Positions 51,471-61,490 of a DNA stretch of 64,000 nucleotides are shown here, one piece after another (positions within the stretch are counted from its first letter, which is position 1; each line of letters begins with the position of its first letter). The notes beneath the pieces are model-generated. The model was not told the DNA's origin. It searched no databases and saw nothing but the letters and a program-made list of their open reading frames with translations. Source of the DNA: Symploca sp. SIO3C6. Its GTDB lineage: Bacteria; Cyanobacteriota; Cyanobacteriia; Cyanobacteriales; Coleofasciculaceae. Made by a program: the position numbers and the translations under genes. The stretch lies in NCBI GenBank assembly GCA_010692425.1, contig JAAHHJ010000001.1, forward strand, positions 557,127-621,126. The letters run 5' to 3'.

Positions 51471-54400
51471 TCAATCGATAAGCAAGTCGTATTGCTGCTG
51501 GGCATACTCCCGCACTTTCTCATCTGTGTCATTATCTATTCTGTTGCGCAATAGTGGTAGAATTTCAGTACGGTCTCGATATTGCTTGATGATTGTCTTC
51601 AGTGCAGTTAGCCGAGGGTTTTTTTCCCAGTCTCCCTTGCGCTCAAAGGGATCTTTTTTAGTGCGATCATACAAAAATTCAAACATTCCAGGCTCATCTT
51701 TCCAACCTTGGGCTATTTCTTGCACTGCTGCTCGTCGCACATCCGAATCCTCATCCTGTTGAGCCCATAGTTTGAGCAGGGGTAAAGTCTCAGTATCTTG
51801 TTTCCAACCTTGGGCTATTTCTTGCACTGCTGCTCGTCGCACATCCGAATCCTCATCCTGTTGAGCCCATAGTTTGAGCAGGGGTAAAGTCTCAGTATCT
51901 TGTTTCCAACCACGGGCGATTTCTCGCACTGCAGCTAGTCGCACAGCCGAATGCTTATCCTGTTGAGCCCATAGTTTGAGCAGAGGTAAGGTATCAGCAT
52001 CTTGTTTCCAACCACGGGCGATTTCTTGCACTGCAGCTAGTCGCACAGGCGAATGCTTATCCTGTTGAGCCCATAGTTTGAGCAGGGGTAAAGTCTCAGT
52101 ATCTTGTTTCCAACCACGGGCGATTTCTTGCACTGCTGCTCGTCGCACAATCACATCCTTATCCTGTTGAGCCGATAGTTTGAGCAGGGGTAAAGTCTCA
52201 GTATCTTGTTTCCAACCACGGGCGATTTCTTGCACTGCTGCTCGTCGCACATCCGAATCCTTATCCTGTTGAGCCGATAGTTTGAGCAGGGGTAAAGTCT
52301 CAGTATCTTGTTTCCAACCACGGGCGATTTCTTGCACTGCTGCTCGTCGCACAATCACATCCTTATCCTGTTGAGCCGATAGTTTGAGCAGGGGTAAAGT
52401 CTCAGTATCTTGTTTCCAACCACGGGCGATTTCTTGCACTGCAGCTAGTCGCACATTCCAATGCTTATCCTGTTGAGCCCATTGTTTGAGCAGGGCTAAG
52501 GTATCAGCATCCTCTTTCCAAGTTGTTGCGACTGCGGCGACTGCTTGAGTACGAATTTTTATAATTAATTCGTACTCATCATAATTGCCAGTATCAAGGG
52601 CATACTGCTCATCACCAAACCTGATTAAACCTTTGAGCTTATTCAACAGTTGCTCAGCACTTTTCTTAATCTCGCGGCGATTTCTCACCTCGGCAAGACA
52701 CTCAGCCGCTAGAAAAACATTCAATAATTTGTCAGCTTCCCCATCTTGCTCAATTAAATACTCAATAATCTTCCCAACAAACTTAACATCAATCAATCCA
52801 GCAATCAGTCGTAGTACTTCATGCCAAGACTCATCCTGCCAGTGCTTGCCAAACACTTCCATTTTCAGCTCATCTTCTGTCAGACTTTTTTCCTTCTCAA
52901 ATTTCCGCACAAATTCAGCAGCACAGAAATACTCTAAAAACGTCCGATGTATAAAGGCATAGGAATCAGCACCAAGGAAACATAAAATAAAATTGCGAGT
53001 GCGCAGCTGTTGAATCATTAACTTGGCAACTGCTCTCGCCTGAGAAACTTCTATCGATTTCAAATAGCCAGTTAGAATCTCTTCCAAATCATCTGCACTA
53101 ATCACATTGCCAACTAAACCCTTGTCATTAGCTTGCATGTGGTAGGCAACCTGACGCAACATCGCCTGCTTATCTTTATAATCAATAGTTTCTGGATCTA
53201 GTCTGACATCTTTGACTAAATTTTCCTTAGCTTCAAAGTCCCATTGATGTAATAGTACCTGCGAAGCTTGATTGTAAAGTTCCGGACGATCTCGCGGTAA
53301 TTCTCGATTACGATTAAGAATTGCCACCATTGTCAGTAGTAGGGGATTTCCTGCTAATTCACTAATCGCTTTTGAACTATTAATTGCCTTTTGCAGTCGC
53401 TTAAGCTTTCTTACTTTATCTGCCTCATCGTTGAAAGTTAAGTTATGCCATTTCTCGATAAAATCTTTAATCTGTTGCTCATCTAAATCTTGCAGCATAA
53501 AGTGATCAAACTGGGCATCTCTTAACCGCTGCGGCTTATAGCCAATGACGCGAGAAGTGACAATTACCCGCACCTGGGGATAGTCATTAGTGAAGCGATG
53601 GATATCAGTAATTACATCTTCTCGTTTCCCTGGCTCAAATACCTCATCCAAACCATCAAACATTACTAAAGCATTACCAGCTTTTAGCTGTTGGTGTAGT
53701 TGATGCTGATTGAGACGACAGATAATACCACTGCCTTGATGAAAAAATTCTAGAAAATTCTTACAGTCTCCAGTATCTCGATTGCGAATATAACTGCGTA
53801 ACTCAATTAGCAAAGGAATTGGTTTGGAAATAGCAGTGTGAACATAAGAATTTGCCCAAGCCAAAGCCAGATATTGCAATAATGTAGACTTGCCCGAACC
53901 TGGATCACCTAAAATTACTAGATAGCGATAACTATCCTTATCCTTAATAATTTCTCCAATAGGACGAATAGGCTGTTGCTCATATCTTCTTTTGTATTTT
54001 TCTAACTCCTCTAAGTCAATTTCCTCTTCCAGTTGATTACTTTCTCTCAGCCGCCTTTGATGCTCCTTGGGAAGTTCGTAAGCTTGTGGTAATAATTCAT
54101 GAACTTGGCGCACATTTTGGGGGATAAAAATACTCCACAATTGCAGTTTGTTATAAGCCGCACCATCAGTATCTAAACTGGACAAATTCAGATTACCGTA
54201 GCGCTCTAATAGTCCTTCCTGATACTTTCGCAAATCAAAATCAGGAATAATACCGGCAATTTCTTTAGTATTTCGCTCAATGGACTCCTGAATTTCTAAT
54301 TCCAGAACCGCCCTTAATTCCTGCGATTTTTTAATAATACGTTTTACTTCTCTGAGATAATTCTTGCCAAGCCTATCCCAGTCAAATTCTATAGGCATGG

Positions 54401-54794
54401 TTGGCGGATAATGCTCTATCCAGATTGTCCCTAATTTCCTAGCATCTATAGCACGGCAATCTTTTTCAAAAGCCTTACCCAAAAGTGGCTTAACTTCCTC
54501 ATTGCGGATAAACCGCTCAATCCTTACTTCATATCCATCTCTAATCTCAGCACCGGAAAGCCCACATTCAAATTCCAGCTCATCCTCTACTAACCTCAAG
54601 AATTGCTGTAGGGCTTCACCCAATGCCTTTTTCAGCTCACTAGGTTGAGCTGAAATTACACCCTCTTTAATGCATTCCTTAAAGAAATCCTTAACGTAAT
54701 CTTCCAACGCCTCCTTACCCAATTTCAGCAAGACTTCCTTAAATACCAAATCCTTCAAGATGGAAACACCCAAAGCTGCCCAAGGTTCCACCAT
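51471..54794 (-). CDS. NACHT NTPase with HEAT repeats
   Basis: The 1107-residue protein has an N-terminal helical region of unknown type (about 1-270), a NACHT-type ATPase with Walker A GDPGSGKST (about 296-304) and Walker B LVMFDGLDEV (about 376-385), a winged-helix/helical middle with LAGNPLLLTMVAILNRN, and a HEAT/PBS-lyase-like array (about 756-1027) of eight 34-residue units, then a divergent last unit. NACHT proteins with repeat sensors act as NLR-like immune switches in bacteria. The array is nearly identical at the DNA level. No effector nuclease domain is visible; the N-terminus may hold the effector. Confidence 0.88.
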   Translation of the reverse strand: MVEPWAALGVSILKDLVFKEVLLKLGKEALEDYVKDFFKECIKEGVISAQPSELKKALGEALQQFLRLVEDELEFECGLSGAEIRDGYEVRIERFIRNEEVKPLLGKAFEKDCRAIDARKLGTIWIEHYPPTMPIEFDWDRLGKNYLREVKRIIKKSQELRAVLELEIQESIERNTKEIAGIIPDFDLRKYQEGLLERYGNLNLSSLDTDGAAYNKLQLWSIFIPQNVRQVHELLPQAYELPKEHQRRLRESNQLEEEIDLEELEKYKRRYEQQPIRPIGEIIKDKDSYRYLVILGDPGSGKSTLLQYLALAWANSYVHTAISKPIPLLIELRSYIRNRDTGDCKNFLEFFHQGSGIICRLNQHQLHQQLKAGNALVMFDGLDEVFEPGKREDVITDIHRFTNDYPQVRVIVTSRVIGYKPQRLRDAQFDHFMLQDLDEQQIKDFIEKWHNLTFNDEADKVRKLKRLQKAINSSKAISELAGNPLLLTMVAILNRNRELPRDRPELYNQASQVLLHQWDFEAKENLVKDVRLDPETIDYKDKQAMLRQVAYHMQANDKGLVGNVISADDLEEILTGYLKSIEVSQARAVAKLMIQQLRTRNFILCFLGADSYAFIHRTFLEYFCAAEFVRKFEKEKSLTEDELKMEVFGKHWQDESWHEVLRLIAGLIDVKFVGKIIEYLIEQDGEADKLLNVFLAAECLAEVRNRREIKKSAEQLLNKLKGLIRFGDEQYALDTGNYDEYELIIKIRTQAVAAVATTWKEDADTLALLKQWAQQDKHWNVRLAAVQEIARGWKQDTETLPLLKLSAQQDKDVIVRRAAVQEIARGWKQDTETLPLLKLSAQQDKDSDVRRAAVQEIARGWKQDTETLPLLKLSAQQDKDVIVRRAAVQEIARGWKQDTETLPLLKLWAQQDKHSPVRLAAVQEIARGWKQDADTLPLLKLWAQQDKHSAVRLAAVREIARGWKQDTETLPLLKLWAQQDEDSDVRRAAVQEIAQGWKQDTETLPLLKLWAQQDEDSDVRRAAVQEIAQGWKDEPGMFEFLYDRTKKDPFERKGDWEKNPRLTALKTIIKQYRDRTEILPLLRNRIDNDTDEKVREYAQQQYDLLID
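51714..52529 (-). repeat. Eight 102-bp near-identical HEAT units
   Basis: The array is 8 x 102 bp (816 bp). Units share ARGWKQDTETLPLLKL and AAVQEI almost without change; differences cluster at residues 17 and 22-27 of the unit (for example SAQQDKDVIV, WAQQDKHSPV, WAQQDEDSDV). Units 7 and 8 are identical over nearly the full 102 bp. Confidence 0.93.
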
Positions 54795-55578: not shown

Positions 55579-56685
55579 ATGTCTAAACAGCGCGTCAATA
55601 ACTTCCTATCTAACCTGGCGCTAATTGTCGCCACTGGCTTACTACTGACGTTGCTATGGCAGTTGAAAAGTCTGTTAGTGATACTAATGATTGCCGTGGT
55701 ACTAGCTTCTACTCTAGCACCAACCATCAATGCTGCCGAAAAATTGAGGATTCCTAGGTGGCTAGGAGTCGTCTTCGTGTATTTAGGTTTACTTGCCACC
55801 TTAATTGGACTTGGTATACTAATAGGCCCAACTGTAGCTGAGCAAATTCAGCGCCTCGTGCGAAGATTACCAGGCTATTTAGAGGTTTTGGAAGTGCTGC
55901 TCGACAATTGGGCAATGCGCCTTGGTATCACAGAACCACTTGTTAGTCAACTGTTTGATACTCAAACCATTACCAATTGGGTAATTCGCTCCAGTCAGGA
56001 ATTGCTAGTGCGCTCCTATGGAGTGACGCGGGGCATCCTCGGTGTTGTCATTGCCCTGATTCTGGTAGTCTTCTTTTCCGGCTATATGCTCTCCGGCTCC
56101 CGCAAATTAATTAAAGGATTGGTGAGTTTATTTCCTAAACCCTGGGATGAGCGTTTGGCAGCACAGGTAGAACCGATGAGCAAACGTATGGGAGCTTATA
56201 TTCAAGGGCGAGTAGCAGTTTCAGGCATTTTAGCTATTGCAATTACCTTTGGTTTAGGATTCTTAGGGCTGTCAGAATTTGCTCTCGGCTTGGGAGTTAT
56301 TGCTGGCGTAACTAATTTAATTCCTTTCATTGGGCCAGTTTTAGGGGCAATTCCAGCTTTAATAGTAGCGATTGCTAAAGGAGGATGGACTTTCTGGTGG
56401 GTATTTCTGTTATTTGTAATTATTCAGAATATAGAAACTTATATCCTTGATCCTTTGCTAGTTGGTCCTCAAGTAAAAGTTCACCCTTTCTATCAACTAC
56501 TGGCAGTAATTGGCGGTACTCAAGTTTTGGGAATTATTGGTGCCTTGATTGTTCCTCCTTGGGTTGCCGGGACTGCCGTATTATTGGAGAATCTTTACTT
56601 GAAACCAAAAATATTAGCAGAGCAACAAACCATAGCCATTAATTCTCCTACTAATCAAGAAAAAACTCCCAGCTATCATCAATAA
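55579..56685 (+). CDS. AI-2E family (PerM/TqsA) membrane transporter
   Basis: The 368-residue protein begins MSKQRVNNFLSNLALIVATG and has paired N-terminal hydrophobic helices, a soluble loop (about 90-160) and about six C-terminal helices with GVTNLIPFIGPVLGAIPALI, the family's most conserved block. The family exports or imports small molecules such as autoinducer-2, or acts as an antiporter; the substrate here is unknown. I chose the ATG at 55579 rather than a TTG at 55528. It stands alone and ends in a repeat-rich gap. Confidence 0.87.
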   Translation: MSKQRVNNFLSNLALIVATGLLLTLLWQLKSLLVILMIAVVLASTLAPTINAAEKLRIPRWLGVVFVYLGLLATLIGLGILIGPTVAEQIQRLVRRLPGYLEVLEVLLDNWAMRLGITEPLVSQLFDTQTITNWVIRSSQELLVRSYGVTRGILGVVIALILVVFFSGYMLSGSRKLIKGLVSLFPKPWDERLAAQVEPMSKRMGAYIQGRVAVSGILAIAITFGLGFLGLSEFALGLGVIAGVTNLIPFIGPVLGAIPALIVAIAKGGWTFWWVFLLFVIIQNIETYILDPLLVGPQVKVHPFYQLLAVIGGTQVLGIIGALIVPPWVAGTAVLLENLYLKPKILAEQQTIAINSPTNQEKTPSYHQ

Positions 56686-56689
56686 AAAG

Positions 56690-56878
56690 AGTGTTCATGG
56701 TTCATTGGGAAAGAATGTTCATTGTTCATAGTTGATTGTTCATTGGGAATGTATACCACAACTATCGAATACAAACCCAATGAGCAATGAGCAATGAGCA
56801 ATGAACCATGAGCAATGAACCATGAGCAATGAACCATGAGCAATGAACCATGAGCAATGAACCATGAGCAATGAACCA
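56690..56878. repeat. Inverted-arm heptamer element with TACCACAACT core, copy 1
   Basis: Left arm is GTTCATT/GTTGATT units, right arm is ATGAGCA/ATGAACC units, and CATTGGG pairs with CCCAATG around a core containing GTATACCACAACTATCGAAT (56751-56770). The second copy is at 62105. Confidence 0.78.
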
Positions 56879-57625
56879 CTAACCCAACCAACCTAGAATC
56901 GCCCTGGCAATCCTATGTTCCCAGAGTTGGGATGATAACAAACTTGCCAATAGCCGACGTAAAGCCCAACGGCTAAAGACTGGTAGAATTGGAAGTAACA
57001 AGCGTTTAAAGCCTTGTTGTAATAACCACAACATTACTGGCGGTCCTAGCAGTAGCCAGGGGTTGTCAAGTATATTCTGCACGTAGGGAATTACCGAACT
57101 TGCTACACTCAGACCAGATAAACCCCAAGAGAGCCGATTCACGTTCAATAATGCCCCTATACGCAGCTTAGCCAGCAGTTGATCAATCAGCCAGTAATGA
57201 GCCGAAGCCAGCTGGTGGACAAAATCTGGATTCTCTAGACAATCGTTCCTAATTTGGTGCAATATATCTCCATCAATGCTAATAACACTGCGCATCATTG
57301 CTTCTTGAGAGTCATTTCCTGTATCATAATAAGTGCAAAATGTCAAATCAGATTGACGGAGATTACCAAAGCTAATTAGGGCATAATAGCGCAACTCTGC
57401 TAACCAATGCCTAGAAACCTCAAGTTTATAACCTATATCTTGTGCTTGTTGAATTTCCTTAAGGAGATTTTGATCTAAATTGAAGCGAATGCCGTGAAAC
57501 CGCACCCAAGAGCGACGAACTTGCTCTTTATCAAATGTTATGTATTGCTCTAGATTTAGACCGTTGCGATGTCCAACCTGTTGAGAGCGCTTTCTGAAAA
57601 TCCTTCGAAAAAAATTGTACCACAC
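56879..57625 (-). CDS. Protein of unknown function, DGDI module 1
   Basis: The 248-residue protein is not recognised. It begins basic (MWYNFFRRIFRKRSQQVGHR), has a RFNLDQNLLKEIQQAQDIGY helix, and then ISIDGDILHQIRND with a histidine 26 residues from the first aspartate (SAHYW). The C-terminal part has amphipathic or membrane-associated helices (PWLLLGPPVMLWLLQQGF, about 193-210). It is last of four genes on one strand with 24-bp gaps to the neighbour, so it is very probably part of one operon. No enzyme motif is known to me. Confidence 0.65.
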   Translation of the reverse strand: MWYNFFRRIFRKRSQQVGHRNGLNLEQYITFDKEQVRRSWVRFHGIRFNLDQNLLKEIQQAQDIGYKLEVSRHWLAELRYYALISFGNLRQSDLTFCTYYDTGNDSQEAMMRSVISIDGDILHQIRNDCLENPDFVHQLASAHYWLIDQLLAKLRIGALLNVNRLSWGLSGLSVASSVIPYVQNILDNPWLLLGPPVMLWLLQQGFKRLLLPILPVFSRWALRRLLASLLSSQLWEHRIARAILGWLG

Positions 57626-57649
57626 GGCAGAAAAATCCTTATTTTGCCG

Positions 57650-58525
57650 TTAATTTTTAGATGAATTCCAGGGCAATACATTCTGGACAAAAGGCTGTCT
57701 CAGTGAAGCTTGCACTAAACCAATAATAAACTGCAACAGTCCCCGCCACTGCTTTTCACCAGCAGAAACACCACTCCTGTGAATTTCTAGAATCATATCT
57801 CGATGAGGATGATCAAAAATCTCTTGAGAATAACGGTTGATAACATCACCATCTAATTGTACTACTGTTTGGGCGTATATTATATCTGTCTTCACAGCCT
57901 TTTGAATCACCTCTAAGTCAACATTACCAATTTGCTCATCCTGCTTTTTATGCAGTGCTTTGTTACGATTATCCAACGCTGATTTGAGTTCACTTAGCTT
58001 GCGTAAACTCCTCAAAAAGCGCCCATTGCTGAGAATTGCTTTTGCTTTCAAAATTTCATCAGAGTTAGTAGGATGAAAAGGGTCTGGTAATAGCGTTTGT
58101 ATTTGATCTAATTCTACTTCCGGGTCAGTTAAGATATGATTATCCTCTCCAGCTCTATTCAAAACCTTGGGTTCGTAGAACTCTGAGCTTGGGTCACTGA
58201 CAATTAAAGTGTATTCTAGTTCTAAGTTTTTGCGTAAATCAAGATAGCGTTCATGCAGAGATTCGTGAACATTATTGTTCTCAAGATACTGTTTCGAGAT
58301 CGGATAAAGATCCCGGTAAGCTTGCCAAGCAATGAACTTTTCACCAGTAATTTGTGCGACAACCATGGTGTTAACTTCTAAGGCGGTGATATCGATGAGA
58401 ACCTCACCCAAAGAATGCACAAACTCATTGAAACTTTGACCCAGATTAGATGCAACCGATTTTCTTTTAGTTGGCTGTGTGGTTTCAGTCATTTCTGTAA
58501 TATTGTTTTGCCTTGTATTGTTCAC
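57650..58525 (-). CDS. Protein of unknown function, DGDV module
   Basis: The 291-residue protein is not recognised. The N-terminus is polar, followed by GEVLIDITALEVNTMVVAQI (about 41-60), which resembles the GEAVDLRITTWVV strand of the two paralogues upstream. The C-terminal part has VQLDGDVINRYSQEIF with histidine at position 25 after the first aspartate (EIH), then QFIIGLVQASLRQPF. The middle is charged and helical (LRKLSELKSALDNRNKALHK). Spacing is 24 bp to both neighbours. It is probably a scaffold-like member of the same system. Confidence 0.65.
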   Translation of the reverse strand: MNNTRQNNITEMTETTQPTKRKSVASNLGQSFNEFVHSLGEVLIDITALEVNTMVVAQITGEKFIAWQAYRDLYPISKQYLENNNVHESLHERYLDLRKNLELEYTLIVSDPSSEFYEPKVLNRAGEDNHILTDPEVELDQIQTLLPDPFHPTNSDEILKAKAILSNGRFLRSLRKLSELKSALDNRNKALHKKQDEQIGNVDLEVIQKAVKTDIIYAQTVVQLDGDVINRYSQEIFDHPHRDMILEIHRSGVSAGEKQWRGLLQFIIGLVQASLRQPFVQNVLPWNSSKN

Positions 58526-58549
58526 AGCTTCCAGTTTGCTTATTCCTAA

Positions 58550-59851
58550 TTATTCTGAATTATCAGATTTTTCTGAATCTGTCTGAGTCGCTGGCGATTC
58601 ACTTTCTGCAGAAGACACTTCCCTGTTGTCACTTGATACTTCCTGAGACTGATTAGTCTTAGCAGAAGTATCGTTTGCTGGAGAAATCGAGTCTGTGGAA
58701 TTGAGTTGTTCTGGAAGGGTAGCTTGCTCAAAACCAGCATATTCTGCAAATTCATCCCAGTCCTCTTCAGTATCTAATTCAGCTGCTGAATCTTGGATTT
58801 CTGGTGCTAATTCCAAAGGATCGAATTCTTCAACTAACTCATTCCAACCTTCATCTTCTTCTAAATCCCAAGATTCTCCATCTTCAACTGAGGTATCCCC
58901 AGACTCATATTCTTCAAAAATCCAGTCATCCCAGTCTTGATCATTTTCAAAAACATCTATGGATGAAGTACTAGAAGTTGACTCCTCTAGGAGAGTTTGT
59001 TGTTCTGGTTCAACTACGTAGTCCCAGTCTTGGTCTAGAGGTGATTTAGTATTATCAATATCTTCTCCAGGGAAAGTCTCTATATCCTGATTAACCTGAT
59101 TTGATGGCGCTGATTCTAACCAGGATTCTTGTTGATCTTCCTCTTCCCAATCGTACTCCATATTTGAGTCTGGAGTCTTGGGCGTTGATGGCGGCATTGG
59201 AGGTAATGATTCGAGCCAATCCGAGACAGAATCATCGCTATCTTGCCCATAAGTATCTTCTTCAAAAACCTCTGGAGTATCTATCGATGTGGAAGGAAAT
59301 TGGTTAGATTCAATGAAGTTTGGTGATGGCACCGGAGCAACATCAACATCAAATACCTCATCCGTACCATAAACAGAATCATATTGCTCCCAATCTGGAG
59401 AATCGATTACCCATCCAGCCTCAGGAGCATCGTCTCCTGGTGGTAAGAGTTGCCCCTCAAAATCAGATGTTTCTGGGGTAAGAGAGGGAGTAGATGCACC
59501 TTGGCGGTGCATAGTTACCAAAACCTCAAAAATTCTTTGTAAACTCTTGAGGTTGCTATAGATAATCTCTTGCCCTTGAGCAACTTGATCTAGATGAAAT
59601 TGTCTTAACTCTCTGTAGGGACCACTGGCGATAAATTGATCCCCAACCTCATTATTAATATCGCCATCAATCATATTGATGCGGGTGCGCAAGCGATAGC
59701 CATGTCTTGCTTGTTCTGGATCCACATTATCTGGGCCGGAAACTACCCAGGTAGTAATTCTCAAATCTACAGCTTCACCCACTGCTAAGGCAAAAGCCTC
59801 AGCAATCTTGCCTGCCCTAAGTTTTCTTCTAAATTCGTCGCTCGATGCCAT
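58550..59851 (-). CDS. Protein of unknown function, DGDI module with acidic tail
   Basis: The 433-residue protein has a compact N-terminal domain (about 1-115) and a long tail very rich in Asp, Glu, Ser and Trp (DWDDWIFEEYESG, EEDEGWNEL), likely disordered. The domain reads DEFRRKLRAGKIAEAFALAV, ITTWVVSG, RINMIDGDINNEVGDQFI, ELRQFH, GQEIIYSNLKSLQRIF. It is clearly homologous to the next upstream protein (60024-60482). Trp-containing acidic repeats suggest short binding motifs for a partner. No membrane segment or signal. Confidence 0.7.
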   Translation of the reverse strand: MASSDEFRRKLRAGKIAEAFALAVGEAVDLRITTWVVSGPDNVDPEQARHGYRLRTRINMIDGDINNEVGDQFIASGPYRELRQFHLDQVAQGQEIIYSNLKSLQRIFEVLVTMHRQGASTPSLTPETSDFEGQLLPPGDDAPEAGWVIDSPDWEQYDSVYGTDEVFDVDVAPVPSPNFIESNQFPSTSIDTPEVFEEDTYGQDSDDSVSDWLESLPPMPPSTPKTPDSNMEYDWEEEDQQESWLESAPSNQVNQDIETFPGEDIDNTKSPLDQDWDYVVEPEQQTLLEESTSSTSSIDVFENDQDWDDWIFEEYESGDTSVEDGESWDLEEDEGWNELVEEFDPLELAPEIQDSAAELDTEEDWDEFAEYAGFEQATLPEQLNSTDSISPANDTSAKTNQSQEVSSDNREVSSAESESPATQTDSEKSDNSE

Positions 59852-60023
59852 GATTATAAGCTGTCACGCATTTTATTTGTGTATTCAATAAGAGATAGAA
59901 AAGATTTGAATAATCCTCCTGCAATGGAAAAATATAGACTTTAAATGCACAGTAGCTTATTTAAACAGGTCTCGGGGAGTTTGCCGAAAAAAAGCGCTAC
60001 ATTCTTGGTAATACCTGCCAAGA

Positions 60024-60482
60024 TCAGGGTAGCTTGTCTTGATTAGAAGGGTATAGGAAAGAACCTCGCTCTCGGAACTTACGCGAAATTTTCGGCAACT
60101 GGGTCATTGTTGTTTTGCTAGTCAAAATAAATAACTGTTGCAAGTTTCCCAGATTTTGATAAATAATCCGGCGTCCTTGTTGCATCTGCTCAATGTGAAA
60201 AGGTCGCAATTCAGTGTAAAGACCATTACCCACAAACTGAGAACCAACTTGGTTGTCAATATTACCATCAACGATATTGATGCGAGTGTGAATACTAGCA
60301 TCAGCAGTCGGTTGGGCTGGTGCAGTTGGATCCTGAATGTCTGGATTAGAAGAACACACCCAGGTAGTAATTTTCAACTCAATGGCTTCTTCCAATGCCA
60401 GATTGATGGCATCAAAAATTTCTCCTGCCTTGAGTTTGGCTTTGAATTCGTCGCTAATTCCCATAATGCTTCCTGAACTCAA
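60024..60482 (-). CDS. Protein of unknown function, DGNI module, first gene of operon
   Basis: The 152-residue protein shares its core with the following protein: DEFKAKLKAGEIFDAINLAL, ITTWVCSS, TRINIVDGNIDNQVGSQFV, ELRPFH, GRRIIYQNLGNLQQLF. It lacks the long acidic tail and ends in a basic segment (KISRKFRERGSFLYPSNQD). Start could also be at residue 7 (MGISDEF), which matches the paralogue's start. It heads a same-strand group of four genes (gaps 172, 24 and 24 bp). Family unknown. Confidence 0.7.
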   Translation of the reverse strand: MSSGSIMGISDEFKAKLKAGEIFDAINLALEEAIELKITTWVCSSNPDIQDPTAPAQPTADASIHTRINIVDGNIDNQVGSQFVGNGLYTELRPFHIEQMQQGRRIIYQNLGNLQQLFILTSKTTMTQLPKISRKFRERGSFLYPSNQDKLP

Positions 60483-60550
60483 GCTTAGACTAGACGTGAC
60501 TTGAATGTAGCAAAGATTCGCCTAAGTTTAACAAAATTATCTGGCACGGT

Positions 60551-60616
60551 GGGAGGGAGATGGGGAGATGGGGAGATGGGGGGAGGGGGAGACGGGGAGA
60601 GGGGGAGATGGGGAAA
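60551..60616. repeat. G-rich octamer repeat
   Basis: GGGGAGAT and GGGGGAGA units are repeated seven to eight times upstream of the four-gene operon. Confidence 0.88.
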
Positions 60617-60704
60617 GACAGATAGGGTGACACCAAATTGTCAATTGCTATATATTAACTGTTCAGTTTCAATTTACTGTGAACCATGAACTATGAATAA
60701 ATAC

Positions 60705-61232
60705 TCAGCGTTTTGGTCGAAAAACTTTGATCACATCTGGGTTACACTCTAGATAAGGACCTTCAATAAGATCGATGCAATAGGGAATAGCTGGAAAAAC
60801 TGCCTCCAAACATTCTTTAATTGATTTGGGTTTGCCTGGGAGATTGACTATTAAGCCCTTGCCTCGGATACCAGCAGTTTGTCGTGAGAGGATAGCCGTG
60901 GGGACATATTGTAAAGATACCGAACGCATTAGTTCCCCAAATCCTGGTAGCATTTTCTGACAAACTGCCTCAATGGCCTCTGGCGTCACGTCTCTAGGAG
61001 CAGGGCCAGTGCCACCAGTAGTAATTACCAAGCAACATCCGGCTTGATCAATCATATTTTTCAATTCTGTTTCAATGCGGTGTTGGTCATCTGGAACTAC
61101 TCTGTATACAGAATTCCACTCACTGGTTAAATACTCTCTGAGCAAATCAATCACTGCTTTTCCAGAGAGATCTTCGTAAATTCCTGCACTAGCACGGTCT
61201 GAGGCAGTTAGAATCCCTACTTTTATGCTCAT
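60705..61232 (-). CDS. moaB: Molybdenum cofactor protein, MoaB/Mog family
   Basis: The 175-residue protein adenylylates molybdopterin during molybdenum cofactor assembly. The hallmark TTGGTGPAPRDVTPEA (about residues 90-105) and the later GLIVNLPGKPKSIKE are typical, as is the N-terminal GILTASDRASAG. MoaB and Mog/MogA cannot be separated reliably by eye. A molybdopterin-fold protein gene lies 1 kb away at 62277. Confidence 0.92.
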   Translation of the reverse strand: MSIKVGILTASDRASAGIYEDLSGKAVIDLLREYLTSEWNSVYRVVPDDQHRIETELKNMIDQAGCCLVITTGGTGPAPRDVTPEAIEAVCQKMLPGFGELMRSVSLQYVPTAILSRQTAGIRGKGLIVNLPGKPKSIKECLEAVFPAIPYCIDLIEGPYLECNPDVIKVFRPKR

Positions 61233-61490
61233 TCTACAACTCTTTTTGGCTAATACTATTGTGCTTGATTCTGGCTAGAGTTGGATTACTGAAATTGTTT
61301 ACTGGTAAGACTTTTCCAATTCCAGCTCTCTAAGAATTTTGCAATAATCCCCATCTCCTCCTACCTTGGCTAATCCAAACTTCCAGAGTTACCTATTCTT
61401 TAACTTGCCATTCCCTCGATCAAAAGTTGTGGCATTTTTCGCAATAGTAGAGCAAGATAGTGGGCAGCACAGTAAATCAGGAGTTTAACG

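Follow-up and report, generated by a model that had tools for sequence, protein, structure and literature searches.

A co-inherited four-gene cluster of cyanobacteria with a shared Asp-Gly...His stretch and a Trp-acidic tail

Results

A 64,000-nucleotide stretch of the cyanobacterium Symploca sp. SIO3C6 (order Cyanobacteriales; GCA_010692425.1, contig JAAHHJ010000001.1, positions 557,127 to 621,126; termed the window) carries on its minus strand four open reading frames (ORFs), here named A, B, C and D, the products of which share a stretch around an Asp-Gly pair and a downstream His. The four genes constitute a co-inherited set in a conserved order across cyanobacterial genomes, and sequence comparison suggests that the homology of the shared stretch is strong between A and B and modest for C and D. 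A first-pass annotation had picked out these ORFs at the coordinates recovered here and had noticed the motif in all four proteins. Its observation is confirmed; its interpretation, a multi-subunit complex built from one module, is partly supported as a whole, and the complex itself is plausible. The most interesting addition to that annotation is an array of Trp-acidic motifs along the acidic tail of B.

Distribution and gene order of the cluster

Within the order, the module of B was matched in 78 of 148 genomes, and a joint A/B profile matches 39 of 386 genomes sampled across the phylum, five of which lie outside the order. In a set of 100 genomes, the B module is present in 55 and C in 49, with both occurring together in 47 (Fisher p 1e-17, kinship uncorrected). 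The two C-only genomes are 61% and 77% complete, and the eight A/B-only genomes belong to families f14 and f31 (handles with f, G, L and C plus a number denote families, genomes, loci and contigs). The condition that would have refuted the first-pass reading, that the four genes never co-occur among homologues, is at odds with the 47 of 49 C-bearing genomes that also hold the B module.

Gene order was compared in 41 loci, comprising the window and regions fetched from 40 of the 78 genomes (40 regions, picked to span families and not at random); L001, which duplicates L089, was omitted. When a lone A/B-type gene is assigned to A or B by its length, these loci read A-B-C-D in 23 cases, B-C-D in five, A-C-D in two, A-B-C in three, B-C in one, A-B in four (one of them cut by the end of its contig) and B alone in three. 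A further 14 loci (four from f33, five from outside the order and five others), in which M stands for an A/B-type module, read M-C-D (7), M-M-C-D (1), M-M-C (1), M-M (2), M only (1) and C-D (2); here, the second M of L103 overlaps its C and is found in the hit list and not in the map, and L104 comes from a genome in which A and B lie on a different contig. The mapped loci agree in gene order and strand, which bears out the conserved neighborhood that the first-pass annotation had proposed to survey. As M-C-D, A-B and B-only loci exist, the full four-gene set is not obligatory.

Several loci show additional features. At L054:10695-13472, about 2.8 kb separate A from B and hold ORFs of 335 and 78 residues on the operon strand and one of 83 residues on the opposite strand. 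Two small conserved genes, of ~130 and 87 residues, precede M-C-D on the same strand in f44 genomes (L094:7159-7968, L097:8143-8976). Three homologues of C are read through one stop (G043:C16:22044-22823, G016:C1:998938-999633 and G002:C181:18039-18764) and may be match end effects or broken genes.

The cluster frequently lies beside maf, a neighborhood missing from the first-pass annotation. In 51 of the 78 genomes, the module and maf share a contig and lie no more than 600 bp apart (coordinates compared by eye), and among the 41 mapped loci maf is upstream in 28 and psbP-maf in 22. Pfam matched the neighbors in L052 to PsbP and Maf at 1.8e-61 and 1.2e-55, respectively, and where B stands alone (three loci), 18-27 bp separate it from maf. 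This proximity would fit a functional tie of the cluster to the upstream genes, maf and the CyanoP-type psbP, with a role in maintaining photosystems or thylakoids. However, psbP adjoins maf also in cluster-free genomes (e.g. G001, G005, G008, G009 and G017), so that the neighborhood says little about function. In addition, 27 of the 78 genomes are unlinked to maf, including the four of f33, the eight of f5 (one of the eight without a maf match) and that of the window, where maf and psbP are located on another contig, C222. We consider a role in photosystem or thylakoid maintenance unlikely; the psbP-maf site looks like an old chromosomal address, frequent but unspecific.

The shared Asp-Gly...His module

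In A, B and C the His follows the Asp of the Asp-Gly pair (DG) by 24 positions, and in D by 25, corresponding to the inclusive counts of 25 and 26 given by the first-pass annotation. A and B are full paralogues over ~120 residues (hhalign E 2e-57), as the first-pass annotation had noticed. C and D differ from them elsewhere and have in common with A/B a stretch of 35-60 residues only, around Asp-Gly-Asp-Ile...His, at modest significance. The hhalign E-values, each from a single comparison, are 1e-5 for C-D, 1.8e-4 for A-D, 7.7e-4 for B-C, 2e-3 for B-D and 1e-2 for A-C. In all five cross pairs, DG or EG is aligned on DG with the Gly in register, and none of 60 column shuffles per pair reached the real score. 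A reversed-alignment control scored lower for all five pairs, for A-C narrowly (22.9 vs 24.9).

Family hidden Markov models (HMMs) were run without iteration on 1591 ORFs at a threshold of E<1. The AB-HMM recovered 30/34 C and 3/30 D, the D-HMM 32/34 C, 15/32 A and 5/39 B, and the C-HMM 11/30 D, 7/32 A and 3/39 B. Unrelated ORFs below this threshold, among the best six listed, numbered one for the AB-HMM (0.1), three for the D-HMM (best 0.3) and two for the C-HMM (best 0.23). The family HMMs place the other families above nearly all of the 1591 ORFs, with many individual E-values being weak. The window copies of C and D score weakly against the AB-HMM alone (domain E 4 and 3), and the link of C and D to the module therefore rests on their families. 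An iterated search unites all four proteins, with C at ~1e-22 against the B profile; because iteration can drift, it was not relied on, and the non-iterated HMMs, hhalign and the shuffles were used instead. A by-eye idea that C contains a split full-length module, with an ALEVNT strand as its first half, was abandoned, as the HMM matches cover the second half only. In a tree of 87 module rows few forks are resolved; the A and B sequences cluster, yet neither makes up one side of a single branch, and hence no duplication history is drawn.

The shortness of the aligned stretch, the weak A-C comparison with its close reversed control and the E-values of window C and D would also fit if C and D were unrelated to A/B and had converged on a short hairpin-helix pattern. 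This explanation has to account for five profile pairs aligned in register without any shuffle at the real score, for C-D and A-D standing clearly above their controls, and for the genes being neighbors. We regard convergence as improbable, and common descent of the shared stretch as the better reading.

Further analysis of the alignments revealed that the His is invariant in A/B (33 rows) and C (25 rows), with conservation of 90% or more in D (25 rows), and that the Gly reaches 90% or more in each of the three alignments. Of the Thr residues, two are conserved to at least 90% in A/B and without exception in C, and none is listed for D. The Asp-Gly pair and the His, together with the Thr in A/B and C, could form a ligand or catalytic site, in which case the four genes would encode a duplicated family of small enzymes or sensors and not a scaffold. 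Nevertheless, the window proteins match no enzyme family above the cut-off in Pfam or NCBIfam and have no relative among solved structures, and the DG falls in a predicted hairpin turn (low confidence), where a structural role would explain its conservation equally well. An enzyme or sensor family thus appears a poor candidate in our estimation.

The predicted structures cover A and B, and were computed by AlphaFold2 from alignments of 10 and 8 rows made of window and L001 sequences; in the alignment behind the B model, two N-terminal rows of C are misplaced. The mean pLDDT is 65.6 for B (residues 1-120) and 58.4 for A (residues 1-123), both of low confidence. The order of elements in both models is helix-helix-strand-strand-strand-long helix, that of B having a short additional helix, and the DG lies where the second strand turns into the third. 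Foldseek with the B model found no significant match (best E 0.73), and VIA-align gave a best Z of 5.0, which may mean only a common arrangement. By sequence search, no relative of the four proteins was found among solved structures (best E 0.16). These fold-search negatives do not exclude families absent from the searched sets, and the models are too weak to name a fold.

Searches against known families

None of the four window proteins reached the curated cut-off of any Pfam or NCBIfam family, in line with the first-pass annotation, which did not recognize the family. A Pfam scan of 33 A/B, 25 C and 25 D members, run in a mode that lists no cut-offs, gave scattered weak hits of one or two members each, the best being 3.9e-4. 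For the window proteins, the best match in PHROGs (E 0.018) is of unknown function, and PADLOC gave no match. The B module has no match in phage or plasmid records, and C has none in plasmids and no relative in viral contigs. A phage, plasmid or defence origin was set aside on the basis of these searches. A gas vesicle link was rejected as well: the GvpA-type family PF00741 is found in 35 of 148 genomes, and its overlap with the cluster, 11 genomes vs 18.4 expected, lies below expectation (Fisher p 0.006, negative direction, kinship uncorrected). We met no paper on the A-B-C-D cluster in the literature searches made; such searching is weak without locus tags, and absence from print is not claimed.

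The acidic tail of B and its Trp-acidic motifs

Beyond the module, B has a long acidic, Trp-rich tail, as reported by the first-pass annotation; the motif arrays within it are described here. In the window, this tail (residues 119-433) is composed of 29% Asp/Glu and 2% Lys/Arg and contains 11 Trp residues. Its Trp-acidic motifs include NDQDWDDWIFEE and TEEDWDEFAEY; two motifs fit the strict pattern [DE]W.[DE][WFLYMI], vs 0.14 expected, and there is no strong repeat period. Across 39 B tails, the length varies from 60 to 1809 residues, Asp/Glu from 17 to 41% and Lys/Arg from 1 to 10%. The composition suggests that the tail is probably disordered.

In these 39 tails, the strict motif occurs 101 times, compared to 7.1 in composition-keeping shuffles, with at least one copy in 30, and W..[WF] occurs 88 times, compared to 21. 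Two tails, those of L065 and L062, hold 30 of the 101 strict motifs; without them and without one member of each of three near-identical pairs, the count is 60 vs 5.1 in 34 tails. The tandem units vary by lineage: L065 has PVEEEEWGDFALEDD-like units, L062 ELEDEDWGDIASEAT-like, L072 QLEEENWEETDHNLG-like and L069 TEEESLWEETPATPS-like ones. When compared with themselves, 11 of the 39 tails match best at a period of 27-30 residues.

A DNA pattern for [DE][DE]W[GDE][DE]F, run on 13 genomes with the reversed pattern as control, gave 18 matches vs five. Ten of the 18 fall in B-type tails (one on a module-less fragment, L122), five in a coiled-coil protein, found in this way in 5 of the 13 genomes, and three in other frames. 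Twenty full tails of the coiled-coil protein, taken from the best-scoring families (mainly f1 and f12), contain the B motif 11 times vs 1.5, nearly always at one conserved site, and the ten tails with the motif all come from cluster-bearing genomes. The B tail might work with this coiled-coil protein, which weakly resembles HmpF, and the two might dock to a common partner, perhaps for motility. A further 20 genomes, drawn from other families, show no association: the motif occurs in two of ten that carry the cluster and in one of ten that lack it (Fisher p 1.0). The pooled p value of 0.013 thus depends on genomes that are related. Genomes with both the coiled-coil protein and the cluster number 39, vs 41.6 expected by chance. 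It scores 21.2 bits against the HmpF family NF038350 in L125, where the cut-off is 200, and has no hit in L124. Joint action of the two proteins is very improbable: the Trp-acidic site of the coiled-coil protein is conserved in two related families and gives no independent support for a link to B.

The coiled-coil protein, with its acidic tail and conserved LLAEDWEEF-type site, is encoded at L124:5479-7659 and L125:7069-10176; an identification as HmpF is not supported by NCBIfam. The L125 copy adjoins a protein with a sub-threshold PilM match. The FcmB actin (PMC12645912), compared by description only, was dropped as a possible link for a neighbor of the coiled-coil protein.

Hydrophobic segments in D

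A stretch of 19 residues with a Kyte-Doolittle mean of 1.6 or more was counted as a hydrophobic segment. Two such segments are present in 20 of the 30 D proteins; five have one, four have none and one has four, whereas none of 34 C proteins has any above the threshold. Hydrophobic segments, of the kind that the first-pass annotation read as possible membrane helices, are thus present in most D proteins; in the window D, none exceeds the threshold. Membrane attachment of the D family is plausible from the hydropathy of the homologues and unproven for the window copy. One of 25 D members matches the reticulon-homology family PF24456 at E 3.9e-4 (the best hit of the Pfam member scan), which we take as a lead only.

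Gene map, selection and surrounding sequence

The features of the four genes are compiled in Table 1. For gene A, the ATG is the more likely start, because homologues begin there. The gaps of 24 bp cited by the first-pass annotation in favor of co-transcription are found between B and C and between C and D, whereas A and B are 172 bp apart.

Table 1. Features of the four-gene cluster (positions in the window)
Feature	Position	Strand	Description
Gene A	60024..60464	-	small single-module protein, 146 residues from ATG 60464; ORF open to TTG 60482
A, shared-module stretch	60195..60269	-	Asp66-Gly...His90
A-B intergenic gap	59852..60023	-	172 bp
Gene B	58550..59851	-	433 residues, module and long acidic Trp-rich tail
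B, module	59498..59851	-	residues 1-118, paralogous to A
B, tail	58550..59497	-	residues 119-433, acidic, Trp motifs
Gene C	57650..58525	-	291 residues
C, common stretch	57716..57874	-	residues 218-270, modest homology to A, B and D (QTVVQLDGDVINRY...H249...W260)
Gene D	56879..57625	-	248 residues, putative shared stretch and C-terminal weakly hydrophobic region
D, common stretch	57197..57310	-	residues 106-143, RSVISIDGDILHQI...H143; family-level link, window copy alone weak
D, C-terminal region	56882..57163	-	about residues 155-248; two hydrophobic segments in 20 of 30 D proteins, below threshold in the window copy

Residues 1-433 of B are matched in the near relative Symploca sp. SIO2E9 (L001), with 84% identity in the best segment. 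Comparison with this genome gave dN/dS values of 0.16 for A, 0.10 for the B module, 0.34 for the B tail, 0.155 for C and 0.26 for D, showing that each of the four genes is under purifying selection. No RNA family reaches its gathering score within 56600-61300. Promoter-like sites number seven vs 10.2 in shuffles and terminator-like sites five vs 2.7; neither was used in the interpretation.

Two tandem arrays flank the cluster: one downstream of D at 56780-56878, with a 14-bp unit (ATGAGCAATGAACC) in 7.1 copies at 97% match, and one upstream of A at 60555-60614, with an 8-bp unit (GGGAGATG) in 7.5 copies. At 51471-54794, an ORF of 1107 residues contains the P-loop-like sequence GDPGSGKST and, in its C-terminal part, a series of near-identical ~30-residue repeats (VQEIARGWKQDTETLPLLKLSAQQDKD); we presume that it resembles a NACHT-type protein.

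Discussion

Proposed architecture

We tentatively propose, at somewhat below an even chance, that A, B, C and D make up a membrane-associated hetero-oligomer, with the tail of B as a multivalent docking arm. In this model, the four relatives would assemble through the shared module and D would place the assembly at a membrane, while the Trp-acidic peptides along the acidic tail of B, several in number, would be bound by a partner through basic pockets that accept Trp. The comparisons show the homology of the shared stretch, the co-occurrence and order of the genes, and the composition, motif enrichment and lineage-specific repeats of the tail; assembly, membrane attachment, disorder of the tail and docking are inferred from them.

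Several findings weigh against this architecture. No partner was found for the B tail. The strict motif is missing from 9 of the 39 tails, some of which carry other Trp-acidic units (such as TEEESLWEETPATPS in L069), and the number of strict motifs scales weakly with tail length (r 0.18; r 0.71 for the Trp count). The window D lacks a hydrophobic segment at a cut-off of 1.6 and also at 1.3; it is one of the four D proteins out of 30 without any segment, and five of the 30 have only one. B is absent from A-C-D or M-C-D loci (2 of 41 and 7 of 14, respectively), and other loci hold just A and B (4 of 41, of which one is truncated by the contig end) or B alone (3 of 41). The low confidence of the structure models also counts on this side.

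A broader version of the hetero-oligomer, which we hold to be doubtful, pictures a cyanobacterial platform in which the duplicated-module assembly, with D at the membrane, would carry on B a tandemly expandable Trp-acidic array of adjustable valency that gathers a client. Candidate clients would include condensates, the shell of an organelle or assembly machinery, brought together at the membrane. If so, the independent repeat expansions across lineages would be natural changes of docking valency, and the cluster would be a bacterial docking scaffold whose valency evolves by the expansion of peptide repeats. The tails of 60 to 1809 residues would then provide related natural variants for comparison, and the cluster an entry point to a membrane-linked cyanobacterial process. 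An A/B-type gene is present in about half of the sampled genomes of the order (78/148), yet it is unnamed by the curated families searched.

Comparison with known systems

HmpF (PMC9239167, PMC7002697) is weakly resembled by the coiled-coil protein described above, which occurs in the same genome as the cluster and has an acidic tail with a Trp-acidic site. However, the coiled-coil protein lies under the NF038350 cut-off and is found with the cluster no more often than expected by chance, and A, B, C and D themselves have no match to NF038350. The W-acidic motifs of kinesin-1 cargoes are similar in their Trp or Tyr with acidic flanks, which is bound by a repeat domain (PMC5450233, PMC6214655); they are eukaryotic, and nothing here ties them to the cluster by descent.

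Two bacterial proteins offer parallels in manner of working. In the carboxysome adaptor McdB, which like B is cyanobacterial, an invariant Trp with acidic residues nearby is needed for carboxysome association, and the authors themselves draw an analogy to kinesin (PMC11321042). McdB has one C-terminal Trp, compared to the many along the long tail of B; a Trp near the C-terminus was not found in the window B, which has none in the last 40 residues and Trp residues spread along the tail, and the two are likened by description and not by sequence. The C-terminal tail of WalK is a disordered bacterial tail in which a Trp among acidic residues is reported to be needed to bind WalR (PMC9087282). It resembles the tail of B in these respects, and differs in having a conserved Trp on a histidine kinase of Gram-positive signalling. 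Altogether, McdB and WalK would resemble B by a likeness in working, namely a Trp among acidic residues that serves to bind a partner, and not by membership of a common family.

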